From: Verrucomicrobiota bacterium
GTDB taxonomy: Bacteria > Verrucomicrobiota > Verrucomicrobiia > Limisphaerales > JACDHS01
DNA: 59,034 nucleotides
Direction of reading: 5' to 3'
Assembly (NCBI GenBank): GCA_013820875.1
Contig: JACDHS010000013.1
Coordinates: 1-59,034, forward strand
In this document: piece after piece, positions 1 through 59,034 of the stretch
How positions within the stretch are numbered: the stretch's first letter is position 1
Layout of the letters: each line of letters opens with the position of its first letter
Position numbers and translations under genes: made by a program
Notes under the pieces: model-generated
Database searches by the model: none
Seen by the model: the letters and a program-made list of their open reading frames with translations, nothing else
Told to the model about the DNA's origin: nothing

Positions 1-973
1 ACGCTGACAAGACGATTGTTTCTTAGCAAAGCAGTTCTTCCAATCACCGCAAAGCAAACCCTGGCAGAGAAGACAAATTCAGGGCAAACAGTCAGAACTT
101 GAGAGTCACGGCCCGAACTTCGGGCTGGCAGGTTTGCCCCACCTTTTTTGGCTAGGAGCTTCCGCTCCACCTCCGCCTCAGTATGCTGGGTTGTACCTTA
201 TAATTTCCGGATACGCTCGCCCTCATCAAAAAAGTCTCCCGAGCCGCGAAAGGGTTACGGCTAAAACGTTATAATCCTGCCCGTCAATGGTTGCGGTTTT
301 CTGTTTCGCGATTGGCTTAACGCCGCGCATTGTGCCGTTGCAAACTTGTCCGCCAATGTCTGTCGACCCGCTGTTGTCTTCTGCTCCCCTTCGCCTTTTC
401 TCCTTTTCGCCTCTTCTCTGGTGTTCAGTATTCAGCATCCTCCAGTAGGTATCGCGTTTGTTGGAATGCTACGTTGGGGGATTAAGAGCCCGGATATCGC
501 GGCCCTTCAGGCCGCAAATGTGGTGAAACCGTTTACCCAGCCCGGTGGGCTGGGCTGAGGGATTGCCGGCCCTTTGGGCCTCCGGCCAGCTGCAGCGAAG
601 CTGTGCGATATCGTTTATTCCTACTCCTTTAGAATAACTCGATTCAGGACCTATCCGGAAATTACTTTTGGCAACCGTTATAGCCAGACGCACTGCTGTC
701 GCATGCAACGAAACCTGTCACGCGGCCATCTCAATCTTTGCGCAACACGACACCCATTGTGAACCGGCAGAGGTCAGACACCGAGCCCGTGAGCGCCGCG
801 CCGGTGCGCAAGGGGCAGGGAAGGGAGATGGTTTGAAGTTTCAAGTTGGAAACAGAGATCCTCACCCGTTTAAAACACACCCGAATTTACCCTCTGCGGT
901 GATTGGCGATCGCCGCATATTTCTCTATTGTCCATTCGTGGTTTCTTCTTAGAATTTCGATATTAAATTTTCC
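1..973. other. Intergenic repeat-rich leader, no gene recognised
   Basis: I see no convincing coding sequence here; the short open frames are low-complexity and overlap on both strands. The stretch contains a GC-rich palindromic block around 91-131, a pyrimidine-rich tract around 370-440, and the 142-bp repeat at 541-682. The promoter of the GH2-led operon should lie in the AT-rich 900-970 segment, but no unambiguous -35/-10 pair was chosen. Confidence 0.6.
541..682 (+). repeat. 142-bp long-range inverted repeat, left copy
   Basis: The sequence from 541 to 682 is the reverse complement of 58744-58885, with a single mismatch at 595 by eye (141/142). Its first half is GC-rich with nested palindromes (CCCGGTGGGCTGGGCTGAGG, then GGCCCTTTGGGCC). 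Its second half is AT-richer and non-palindromic (GATTCAGGACCTATCCGG). No transposase frame lies inside. It is most likely one member of a dispersed non-autonomous repeat family. Confidence 0.9.
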
Positions 974-2905
974 ATGAACATAAAAAAAATAACGTTACTC
1001 ATCTTCACGGCTGTCCTGATGTCGATGGCATCGGTTTCGGCGCAGACCTGGAAACCTGCCAACCCGAAACTCATGACGGAGTGGGGCGAGAAGGTCACGC
1101 CGGAGAATGCGTGGAGCGAATATCCGCGCCCCCAATTTGTGCGTGAACGCTGGATGAATCTGAACGGGCTGTGGGATTATGCGATTGCACCGAAAATTGC
1201 ACCGCAACCGGCGAAATTCGATGGACAGATTCTCGTTCCGTTTGCAGTCGAGTCAGCGCTTTCCGGCGTGGGCAGGTCATTCACACCGCAGGATCGGCTC
1301 TGGTATCGGCGACAGGTTACGCTGCCGAACCATTGGGCGGATCATCGTATTTTGCTCCACTTCGGCGCGGTCGATTTCGAATGCGTGCTTTGGGTGAACG
1401 GCGGACTTGTGGGTTCGCACGTCGGCGGTTCGGACCCGTTTACTTTTGATGTTACCGCATTCTTGAAACAAGGTGAAAACGAATTACTACTCGCCGTTAC
1501 CGATCCAACCGACAGCGAGGAACAACCGCGTGGTAAACAACAACTGAATCAGCGCGGCATCTGGTACACACCTGTGTCCGGTATTTGGCAAACCGTCTGG
1601 ATGGAACCGGTCCCCCAAGAACATTACCTGGCAGAAATTCGGTTAACTCCGGATGTAGCGGGCAAACGTTTGATCGTAGCTCCGCTGCTGAATACAGCGG
1701 TGGAACGCGATGATTTGGCGGTGCGTTTCACATCGTTTGCCAACGGTAAACCAACTGGAAGCACCGTGGTGCGCGTTAATCGGGAAGGAGTTTTGCACCT
1801 TTCGGATTTGCAATTATGGTCGCCGGAATCCCCGTTCCTCTATGATCTCACGGCTGAACTGGTGCAAGTGAAAGCGCCGGTTGAAAATCGCACGCAGCCA
1901 AAAAATCGCTCAAAGCTGCCATCGTTCGGCGAACCGGAACGTGCGGCTTACGCAAAACTTGAACCCATCGGCAAACCGATGGACGTGGTGAAATCTTATT
2001 TCGGGATGCGCAATGTCACACTGGGCGCTGGACCGAAGTCACAACAACCACACCTGCGTTTCAACGAGACTCCGATCTTCCAGCACGGTCCGCTGGACCA
2101 GGGTTGGTGGCCCGATGGATTACTCACGCCTCCTTCCGACGAAGCGATGGTCTGGGAAATCAAATGGCTCAAGGAAGCCGGTTTCAACATGCTGCGAAAA
2201 CATATCAAGGTTGAACCAGCCCGCTATTACTACCATTGCGATCGCCTCGGCATCCTGGTCTGGCAGGACATGCCGACTGGCTTCAACAAGGCACAACGCA
2301 ATTACCGGGAAGATCAAGGCGAACCGCTTCGTCTTTCCACCAGTCGCGAACAGTTTGAATTGGAGCTGCGCCGCATGATTGGACGTCTCTACAATCATCC
2401 CAGCATTGTCATGTGGGTAATTCACAACGAAGGCTGGGGTCAATATGAAAGCCCTGCTCTTTCCCGCTGGGTGAAATCGATTGATTCAAGCCGATGGATC
2501 AATGGCGTTTCCGGTTGGCTGGATCAAAATACCAGCGACATCTACGACATCCATACCTACCAGGAAGTGCCGCTCGCACCGGCAAACCAGATGGATCGCG
2601 CCATTGTCATAGGTGAATACGGCGGCGTGGGCTGGCCTGTCACCGGACATCTGTGGGATGCGGAGAAACGCAACTGGGGCTACCAGACTTACCAGAGCAA
2701 AGAAGAATACGAAGCAGCGCTCAGAAAGAAAATTGAGGCATTGCTCCCGATGCGACACGACCTGGGTTTGTCAGCCGCGGTTTACACTCAAACCACCGAT
2801 GTAGAAGGCGAAGTAAACGGGTTTATGACCTACGATCGCAAAATGATTAAAGTGACTCCGGCGACTCTCAAAGAAATGAACCGGAAATTGATTCAGCCTC
2901 GATAA
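974..2905 (+). CDS. Exported glycoside hydrolase family 2 enzyme (beta-galactosidase/glucuronidase-like)
   Basis: A 643-aa protein with a typical signal peptide (residues 1-23, ending SVSAQ). Residues ~45-215 form the GH2 jelly-roll sugar-binding domain (VDFECVLWVNGGLVGSHVGG), followed by an Ig-like segment and a TIM barrel from ~340. The family acid/base Glu is E486 in WVIHNEGWGQ and the nucleophile is E548 in VIGEYGG. GH2 enzymes are retaining exo-glycosidases; the substrate (beta-galactoside, glucuronide or mannoside) cannot be read from sequence alone. It is first in a seven-gene, same-strand cluster with the arabinofuranosidase 50 nt downstream, so it probably removes terminal sugars from the same polysaccharide outside the cytoplasm. 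The start at 974 is set by the signal peptide. Confidence 0.9.
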   Translation: MNIKKITLLIFTAVLMSMASVSAQTWKPANPKLMTEWGEKVTPENAWSEYPRPQFVRERWMNLNGLWDYAIAPKIAPQPAKFDGQILVPFAVESALSGVGRSFTPQDRLWYRRQVTLPNHWADHRILLHFGAVDFECVLWVNGGLVGSHVGGSDPFTFDVTAFLKQGENELLLAVTDPTDSEEQPRGKQQLNQRGIWYTPVSGIWQTVWMEPVPQEHYLAEIRLTPDVAGKRLIVAPLLNTAVERDDLAVRFTSFANGKPTGSTVVRVNREGVLHLSDLQLWSPESPFLYDLTAELVQVKAPVENRTQPKNRSKLPSFGEPERAAYAKLEPIGKPMDVVKSYFGMRNVTLGAGPKSQQPHLRFNETPIFQHGPLDQGWWPDGLLTPPSDEAMVWEIKWLKEAGFNMLRKHIKVEPARYYYHCDRLGILVWQDMPTGFNKAQRNYREDQGEPLRLSTSREQFELELRRMIGRLYNHPSIVMWVIHNEGWGQYESPALSRWVKSIDSSRWINGVSGWLDQNTSDIYDIHTYQEVPLAPANQMDRAIVIGEYGGVGWPVTGHLWDAEKRNWGYQTYQSKEEYEAALRKKIEALLPMRHDLGLSAAVYTQTTDVEGEVNGFMTYDRKMIKVTPATLKEMNRKLIQPR

Positions 2906-2955
2906 GCATGGATTACTGCATGGCAGAATACTTTATGCTAAACCAACTCTAAACC

Positions 2956-4545
2956 ATGCTGCGCCAGTTATACATTCTATGTGGATTCATTTGCCTGGGG
3001 AACAGTCCTGTCCTTTCCCAGTCCCCCTCGCCCTCCAGCTACCCTGCAACCGTTTCGGTGCATCTCGATCAACGCATCGGCGCGATCAGTCCGTACATCT
3101 ACGGGCAGTATCTGGAACATGTGCAGCGCGATGACCAATGCATTTATCCCTCGCTCTGGGACAACCAATCTCCTTTTGCGGATAAATCCGGATTGCGTCG
3201 TGATGTGATCGCGGCGGCGCGCGAACTGGGTGTCCCGGTGGTTCGCTGGCCCGGTGGTTGTTTCGCCGATGTTTATGATTGGGAAGACGGCATAGGCCCG
3301 CAATCGGAGCGACCGGTACGGATCAACAAACATTGGGGCGGAGAGGAACCGAACCACTTCGGCACTGACGAATTTCTGCGTTGGTGCCAACTGGTCGGAA
3401 CCGAAGCGTATATCAATGCGAACCTGGGCACCGGCACGCTCGATGACTGCCTGAACTGGCTTGAGTATTGCAACGGCAATACCAGCACCCCACAGGGGAA
3501 ACGTCGCAAAGCCAACGGGCACTCGAAACCTTACGACGTGGCATTTTGGGGGATTGGCAACGAGACGTTTGCCAAATGGGAAGCCGGTTACATGGATGCC
3601 AAAACTTACGCCGCAACTTTGACCGAATGGGCTGGCGCGGTTCGGCAGCAAAGTCCGAAGACTAAAATCATGGCTGTAGGTTCAATGTCAGCAGACGTTC
3701 CCGAGTGGGACCGCGCGCTCCTGGACCAGGCGGGACATTTATTTGATTACCTGACGTTTCATGCTTACGGCGTTTGCAACGGAAACCGGGCGGATTATGA
3801 GTCGGTTGCATTCACACCGGTTTACTTCGAGCAACGTCTCAGGAAAATGATCGCCGTGCTGGACGAATTCGCATGGAAGCGGACCAACCAGGAACCGATT
3901 CGAATTTCGATGGATGAATGGAATATTCGCCATCATCGCGACGGCGGTTTAACCCGGAAAGATCCCCGCACGCAACAGGATGCGGTCTTTGCCGCTGGCG
4001 TGTTGAACACCATGATCCGACTCAGTCCACGGGTGGGGATGGCCAATTACGTTTTCCTCGTCAACGGCAACGGCGTGATGCTGGTGAACAGCAATCAAGT
4101 CGTGAAGACACCGTTGTTTCATCTCTTCAAACAATATGGCGAATGGATGCAGGGCGATGCTCTCAATGCGACGGTGAATTCTCCAATGATTCAGCCGCCC
4201 ACACCCAGCGCGCATTATCCGAACTATAAATTCCCAGCCGACTTCAAGTCACCCGAGTCTCCCTACCTGGACGTCACGGCCGCGTTGAAAGATCGTAATA
4301 CTTTGGCAGTGGCAATAGTCAATCGCCACGGCCATTCCTCGGCCAACGTCGAACTCGATTTGCCGAAAGGTTTTGTTCCACAAACGGTTTGGACCTTGCA
4401 TCACGAAGACATTTTCGCAGCCAACAGCTTCGATGCACCGGACCGGGTGAGCCCGACCGTCCGCCAGTTGAATGGCAACAAATGGAGCTCCCCACCGCAC
4501 TCCGTTTCCATTATTCTCTGCAAACGCAGCGGGGGCTTTTTTTGA
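2956..4545 (+). CDS. Exported GH51-type alpha-L-arabinofuranosidase
   Basis: A 529-aa protein with an N-terminal signal (hydrophobic residues ~4-20, PVLSQ). The barrel carries VVRWPGGCFADVYDWEDGIG, typical of GH51 arabinofuranosidases, then acid/base E203 in WGIGNETF and nucleophile E321 in SMDEWN. A C-terminal beta-sandwich follows (~400-525). The family removes terminal alpha-L-arabinofuranosyl groups from arabinoxylan, arabinan or related glycans. The stop codon shares its last A with the ATG of the next gene (TGATG), so translation is probably coupled to the sulfatase. Family assignment is strong; the natural substrate is inferred. Confidence 0.9.
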   Translation: MLRQLYILCGFICLGNSPVLSQSPSPSSYPATVSVHLDQRIGAISPYIYGQYLEHVQRDDQCIYPSLWDNQSPFADKSGLRRDVIAAARELGVPVVRWPGGCFADVYDWEDGIGPQSERPVRINKHWGGEEPNHFGTDEFLRWCQLVGTEAYINANLGTGTLDDCLNWLEYCNGNTSTPQGKRRKANGHSKPYDVAFWGIGNETFAKWEAGYMDAKTYAATLTEWAGAVRQQSPKTKIMAVGSMSADVPEWDRALLDQAGHLFDYLTFHAYGVCNGNRADYESVAFTPVYFEQRLRKMIAVLDEFAWKRTNQEPIRISMDEWNIRHHRDGGLTRKDPRTQQDAVFAAGVLNTMIRLSPRVGMANYVFLVNGNGVMLVNSNQVVKTPLFHLFKQYGEWMQGDALNATVNSPMIQPPTPSAHYPNYKFPADFKSPESPYLDVTAALKDRNTLAVAIVNRHGHSSANVELDLPKGFVPQTVWTLHHEDIFAANSFDAPDRVSPTVRQLNGNKWSSPPHSVSIILCKRSGGFF

Positions 4546-14352: not shown

Positions 14353-14404
14353 CGGCAGAGTTTAGGGAGTGTTTTTTAAAGATAAAGCACGGGAGGAACA
14401 GTGG

Positions 14405-14840
14405 GTGTGGTTCCGGGTGTGATTTTTTCCGGGTGAGATGGGTGGAGTTAAGGCACAACGGGCCGAAATCCACCAGCCCAGGCCGGTGGCCCACTGCCAT
14501 TTACTTAACGGGGTTGGGTGTTTCCCGAGGGCCAAAGGCCCGGCATTATACCAGCCTGGGCCATTGGCCCAGGGAAGATGACCTGAAAATTCTCAAAGGG
14601 CTGAAGGCCCGCCCTATTGGATGTTCATTAGACTTCCACGAATAGGTCGGGCCTTCAGCCCTCAATTGGGTTGCCGGATTATCCCTGGGCCGATGGCCCA
14701 GGCTGGTATAGATCGGACCTTTGGTCCTTAACTAAATGGCACTCGGCCACCGGCCTGGGCTGAGGGCTTTCAGCCCGTTGGGCCGTGCAGCTACCCCATC
14801 TCACCCGGAAAAAATCACACCCGTGTAATTCCGGGTGTGA
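14405..14840. repeat. ~430-bp imperfect inverted repeat (giant hairpin) of GC-rich palindromes
   Basis: The outer arms are GTGTGATTTTTTCCGGGTGA near 14417 and its complement near 14799 (TCACCCGGAAAAAATCACAC). Moving inward, the arms continue to pair in blocks: CACTGCCATTTACTTAA with its counterpart near 14727, CCAGCCTGGGCCATTGGCCC with its counterpart at ~14686-14707, and GGGCTGAAGGCCCG with CGGGCCTTCAGCCC. The centre is near 14620. No coding frame is supported. Several of these blocks recur at 58845-58915. Confidence 0.85.
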
Positions 14841-14877
14841 TTATTAGCGGGTGACGATCTATTTTCCCCTTTCGCCT

Positions 14878-44637: not shown

Positions 44638-45237
44638 CGTTGGCCGATATATGGGGACGGCTCAGAACATGCGTCAATCTGAAAGTAAGTAACTGATCAG
44701 CACGGGGCGCGATTAAAAGCAAGTCGTGGAAAATCTGTCAATACTGCGATGGAAGGGGGCCAACCACGCCACTTTTTCGTTCTGTTTTGGACACCTGGTT
44801 GGCCAACCCACCTACTTTTTCGTTCTGTTTTAGGCACCTGGTTGGCCAACCCTGCTACTTTTTCGTTCTGTTTTGGACACCTAGTTGGCCAACCCTGCTA
44901 CTTTTTCGTTCTGTTTTGGACACCTAGTTGGCCAACCCTGCTACTTTTTCGTTCCGTTTTGACGGCAAGTTGGCCAACCAGGGTTCTAAAACAGAACGAA
45001 AAAATGGATAAACAGCCCGTTTTCCTTACTTTTGGGTTATTCTCGCGGGAATTTGGGTGGAAAAGGGCCATCCGTAGCCGATTAAAACCCATGCACAAGA
45101 TTCCGCCAAGTCTTGGAGTAGACCGCAGGGCGGCGTCCAAGATCTGGCAAAAATTCATCACCCATTTTTAATCTACACCCAAATTCCTCTGTACTGGGTT
45201 CTCTGATTGGCAGCGGCACAAATCTTTTGTTAAGCTC
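44638..45237. other. Intergenic region holding the 43-bp minisatellite
   Basis: 600 nt between the divergent membrane protein and pseudopilin genes. It contains the tandem array at 44758-45006. The frame at 44749-45171 reads through the array because 43 bp is not a multiple of three; I do not accept it as a gene. 45007-45237 shows no recognised feature. Confidence 0.6.
44758..45006. repeat. 43-bp tandem repeat with inverted terminal copy
   Basis: Five copies of a unit containing TTGGCCAACC, CTACTTTTTCGTTCTGTTTT and GGACACCT occur at a 42-43 bp spacing (CGTTCTG or its variant at 44779, 44821, 44864, 44907 and 44950). At the end, TTGGCCAACC (44973-44982) is followed by the reverse complement of the unit core (AAAACAGAACGAAAAAATGG), so the array can fold against its last unit. 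Units are nearly identical in the last three copies, which means recent expansion. No spacers exist, so it is not a CRISPR. Confidence 0.9.
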
Positions 45238-58743: not shown

Positions 58744-58885
58744 TATAACGGTTGCCAAAAGTAATTTCCGGATAGGTCCTGAATCGAGTTATTCTAAAGG
58801 AGTAGGAATAAACGATATCGCACAGCTTCGGTGCAGCTGGCCGGAGGCCCAAAGGGCCGGCAATCCCTCAGCCCAGCCCACCGGG
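58744..58885 (-). repeat. 142-bp long-range inverted repeat, right copy
   Basis: Reverse complement of 541-682 with one mismatch by eye. It continues into GC-rich palindromes (GCCACTGCCATTTAGTTAAG) that recur at ~14491 and ~14722 in the giant hairpin. No transposase gene is nearby. Confidence 0.9.
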
Positions 58886-59034
58886 CCACTGCCATTTAGT
58901 TAAGGGCTGAAGCCCGGCATGTGATAGCCCAGGCAGCAGCGAGTCCGACGAGCAATACAGAACTATAGAGTCGAGGCCCGGCTTTGCGGGCTGGCCTGGG
59001 TTGTGTGGCGGCATTGTCCTGAGCTCTGTAAGAG
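58886..59034. repeat. GC-rich palindromic repeats at the right edge
   Basis: The CAGAACTATAGAGTCGA block at 58961-58977 matches the MITE interior (complement at ~19264-19280). AGGCCCGGCTTTGCGGGCTGG then resembles the 110-131 segment. CAGCGAGTCCGACGAGCAA at ~58938-58956 also occurs near 21218. The window edge cuts this region. Confidence 0.6.

Follow-up and report, generated by a model that had tools for sequence, protein, structure and literature searches.

The near-identical inverted repeat at both ends of the window (the whole 59,034-nucleotide stretch analysed here) is, with a probability of about 0.93, one arm of a non-autonomous IS630-type miniature transposon (MITE). The element has terminal inverted repeats and many dispersed copies, its ends recur as IS630 ends in relatives, and its TA target is duplicated in comparison with uninterrupted targets. 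A sequence-only reading of the window had described a 142-bp inverted repeat with one mismatch at 541-682 and 58744-58885, and this description is correct to within one base. In a BLASTN self-comparison of the window, 540-682 (+) aligns without gaps to 58886-58744 (-), with identity at 142 of 143 positions (E about 1e-67) and the sole mismatch between the two arms at 595; repeat detection within the window returned the same pair (540-682 and 58744-58886). The 142 bp had been taken for the element itself; they are instead the longest stretch common to two damaged copies of a complete element of 497-498 bp (Table 1).

Table 1. Coordinates of the MITE copies, their ends and neighbouring repeats (window positions unless a contig, C, is named)
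Feature	Position	Strand	Basis
Arm common to left and right copies (reported repeat)	540..682	-	142/143 against reverse complement of 58744-58886
IS630-type MITE, left copy	201..682	-	Alignment with complete C129 and C177 copies; sequence
IS630-type MITE, right copy, terminal arm only	58744..58886	+	BLASTN pair; complete-copy alignment
Terminal inverted repeat TATAACGGTTGCCAAAAGTAATTTCCGGA, TA target included	654..682	-	Pattern match, 0 mismatches; end comparison
Terminal inverted repeat, right copy	58744..58772	+	Pattern match, 0 mismatches
Second MITE family, cut by contig end	58887..59034	+	99.3% identical to part of intact C47 copy
Second-family end CACTGCCATTTAGTTAAG, 18 bp	58887-58904	+	End comparison
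Interior plus truncated end of second MITE family, extending beyond contig	1..200	-	97-98% to loci L140, L069
Second-family copies	C47:22173-22509; C76:4157-4454; C145:13800-14025		18-bp ends and 10-bp direct target duplications
Related hairpin, not IS630-type MITE	14492..14744	.	Second-family end-like sequences, 2 mismatches each, inside larger palindrome

Complete copies with inverted ends lie at C129:1633-2129 (497 bp) and C177:16346-16843 (498 bp) and are 96.4% identical to each other (480 of 498 columns). At seven further loci the paired ends stand 171-270 bp apart around other interiors. Across this range of 171-498 bp no transposase gene is found between paired ends, and the longest stop-free stretch in the C129 copy is 92 codons. 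The IS630-type family is short, transposase-free and dispersed in many copies.

The C177 copy allowed us to compare a filled site with empty ones, since it sits in another repeat family and is flanked by TA on either side. When its flanks are joined by a single TA, the resulting sequence matches C159, C53, C231 and C142 across the junction. In an alignment that adds C183, all five uninterrupted repeats have a single TA where a construct made from the C177 flanks and TATA has TATA. For this one complete copy, compared with paralogous sites within one genome, the single TA of the five uninterrupted repeats and the TA on both sides of the insertion indicate that insertion takes place at TA and duplicates this dinucleotide, which supplies the target duplication that the sequence-only reading had proposed looking for. 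Most paired elements have TA at either end; L053, L056, L077 and L083 lack it at one end each. Orthologous empty sites were not found in relatives, where matches to the joined flanks were short repeat pieces.

GC-rich palindromes lie in the interiors of the elements, and RNA folding of the C129 copy gives a single large hairpin (z -12.0, with 0 of 100 shuffles as stable). Both features would suit REP/BIME-type palindromes that owe their spread to a REP-associated tyrosine transposase (RAYT). We consider this origin highly improbable, since conserved IS630-type ends, TA duplication and precise insertion fit poorly with REP elements. The large hairpin is predicted from the inverted arms of the MITE; taken by itself, the 142-nt arm does not fold unusually as RNA (z from -0.4 to 0.1), and Rfam gave no match in the window at gathering thresholds.

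The terminal repeat (TATAACGGTTGCCAAAAGTAATTTCCGG) agrees at 28 of 28 positions with one of the ends of an IS630-family insertion sequence, 1140 bp long, in G023, a genome of the same order. Both ends of that insertion sequence match the terminal pattern (22/22 and 20/22) around a 366-aa frame, which carries DDE_3 and helix-turn-helix domains and scores 197 bits against the NCBIfam IS630 model (cut-off 100). The MITE and an IS630 insertion sequence have their terminal repeats in common, and the transposase family, which had been suspected to be unrecognised, can be named as IS630. At locus L118 (1369-2508) the stop codon of the transposase gene falls within the terminal repeat, so that the element end codes for the final residues (IRK). 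Ends of this kind are present in 3 of 20 genomes, namely the MITE's own, G001 of the same family (53 matches) and G010 (3 matches), and another pattern found them in 9 of 116 genomes of the order. A DDE_3 search of these 116 genomes gave a match in 68. Among 30 DDE_3 loci that were examined, L118 has ends near those of the window, L096 (in G071) has ends on both sides that are more distant but similar, and the rest showed no paired ends at five or fewer mismatches in 22. G071, a single-contig genome, has at least 30 DDE_3 matches, many of them near-identical in score. G001 carries a transposase fragment with the same kind of end, the terminal-pattern match and the DDE_3 match lying side by side. 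When the G023 protein was searched against a named genome collection, nine loci were returned, the G023 element and the G001 fragment among them; all nine have a similar end beside the transposase at 0-5 mismatches in 22. With as many as 6 mismatches in 22 allowed, chance also produces end-like matches elsewhere. All nine are from Verrucomicrobiota MAGs, including Akkermansia, Pedosphaera and Methylacidiphilales, which we take to belong to that phylum.

In the MITE's own genome, the G023 protein has no match at E <= 10. A remnant at C163:4965 combines an end with 57 positions of the insertion sequence at 82% nucleotide identity, and its frame closes with STCSIRK-stop, compared with SICSIRK-stop in the insertion sequence, so that it is a C-terminal remnant in which the last codons of the gene are kept. 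This remnant is the only trace of an autonomous partner found in the genome; a full transposase of the lineage was not found there. The sole DDE_3 match of the genome (C77:9561) was considered as partner and rejected for want of matching ends. An autonomous partner in the same genome is usual for MITEs and is not required, as partners can be lost.

The likely mechanism is that a full-length insertion sequence makes an IS630 (Tc1/mariner-like) transposase, which would recognise the terminal repeats of about 28 bp and excise the element; insertion of the excised element at a TA would then leave TA on both sides. The mobiliser was probably a transposase of the G023-type lineage, whose source in this genome has presumably been lost since or is missing from the assembly. 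By analogy with other IS630 elements, the chemistry would be cut and paste. The assignment names a transposable-element family, a transposase lineage and a target for an uncultured Verrucomicrobiota group.

Elements of this kind are well known and ordinary; the family itself is new. IS630-family insertion sequences (NCBIfam NF033545) have the same terminal repeats and TA duplication, whereas the MITE is without the transposase gene. The 107-bp RUP of Streptococcus pneumoniae has its partner, IS630-Spn1, in the same species (PMC2229807); RUP and the MITE are both non-coding, with ends that resemble an IS630 insertion sequence, a TA target and many copies. The MITE differs in being up to 498 bp long and in having its partner only in relatives, plus the remnant. 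The Correia/NEMIS elements (CREE) of Neisseria, as described in PMC2229807 and PMC5039591, have TA at their ends and about 100-200 copies per genome. TA ends, copy number and a similar repeat layout (tatagtggattaacaaaaaccggtacgg against TATAGCGATTACCAAAAGTAATTTCCGG, by eye) liken them to the MITE; they differ from it in their interior and in the repeat's inner half. We therefore rejected assignment to the Correia element (26-bp Correia repeat plus core region), the repeat variants given in PMC5039591 differing by eye in the inner half. A literature search for the terminal-repeat sequence returned text matches only to the Correia string, and no earlier description of the family was found in the literature searched, which left out most subscription journals.

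The window is the entire contig C175 of a 5.70-Mb draft genome of 239 contigs. The 142 bases match this genome at 49 places, well beyond two copies; 23 of these matches are long (98-143 nt, 95.7-100% identity), and the terminal pattern has 77 matches against 0 for a reversed control. Together with the filled and empty TA sites, these counts bear out the earlier suspicion of a mobile, multi-copy miniature element. Beyond the end corresponding to 682, outer flanks differ among nearly all copies, exactly from the element end. One outer flank is common to C142, C182 and C92, so not every copy is an independent insertion. Among the long copies, 20 of 23 are no more than 300 bp away from a contig end, a zone that makes up about 2.5% of the genome, and 11 touch the end itself. 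Several contigs stop after 126-127 matched bases of the repeat, as would be expected of a de Bruijn assembler halting at a repeat. Given how many copies lie near contig ends, the symmetric placement in the window needs no biological cause and mainly marks where the assembly broke. The sequence-only reading had proposed that the pair could invert the 58-kb block between them, and that its conservation reflects recent mobility or gene conversion. An inverted identity of 142/143 would in principle suffice for homologous recombination; we nevertheless judge a block-specific repeat or recent conversion very unlikely, because the window is a whole contig, most long copies sit near contig ends, and the C218 and C140 copies, at 98.6% identity, are about as near in sequence as the window copies, which are thus not a special pair. 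Neither a special 58-kb unit nor conversion needs to be invoked. The MITE family helps to explain the fragmented assembly of this genome, and repeats at both ends of a draft contig are a poor basis for biological readings.

Both window copies adjoin a second MITE family and are cut short there. The left copy has its outer end intact at 682, lacks about 18 outer bases of the distal terminal repeat, which is truncated at 201, and differs from the copies in C129 and C177 in its middle, which is replaced or interrupted. The right copy halts at 58886, and the second family starts at 58887 in place of the remainder; a pattern search for the missing half gave 0 matches. L140 and L069 carry the sequence of window 1-200 directly beside the 18-bp second-family end. 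At 200/201 a truncated second-family end is joined to the truncated MITE end, a junction that may be a deletion or a misassembly. This junction, and the long copies that touch contig ends, would be in keeping with the repeat being an assembly artefact, an account to which we give scarcely any credence: the inner flanks of the two arms differ, complete copies are found inside contigs (C129 and, close to a contig end, C177), and related elements exist in G001 and G010. Under the MITE reading, the window copies would be separate insertions, both damaged later beside the second family, and the nearby contig ends would be due to the breaks that such repeats cause in short-read assemblies. The genes beside the left copy (974-4545) encode a glycoside hydrolase family 2 protein and an alpha-L-arabinofuranosidase.

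Ends of the second family match at 66 places in the genome, and its interiors vary. Besides the one at 14.4 kb, five two-ended copies were read: those in C145, C76 and C47 have exact 10-bp direct duplications, and those in C160 and C108 approximate target duplications. The C47 copy sits inside sequence that starts with an IS630-type end. The ends of the second family, which may resemble IS4-family ends, had no match in a literature text search. The hairpin at 14.4-14.8 kb, which had been assigned to the same family as the terminal repeat, shares with it a GC-rich palindrome and has second-family-like ends, and is not a member of the IS630-type MITE family. It matches the repeat in short pieces only (34 nt at 82%) and the 58.8-kb copy with its neighbour over about 60 nt at 79-80%. 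The IS630-type end is absent from it, as the only pattern matches in C175 (of the 77) are those at 654-682 and 58744-58772. The flanks of its second-family-like ends are reverse complements rather than direct repeats. We entertain as a tentative and rather unlikely extension that IS630-type ends serve as interchangeable shells around unrelated, often palindromic interiors across subfamilies and genera, that the second MITE repeatedly inserts in or beside them, and that the two jointly build and spread large DNA hairpins in the lineage. The hairpin region (14395-14850) forms a 410-bp near-palindrome composed of second-family-like ends and outer repeats of the CGGGTGTGATTTTTTCCGGGTGAGATGGG type, and these outer repeats recur as short matches across the genome. 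A tandem repeat of 43 bp, next to which lies an inverted copy, occupies 44758-45007.
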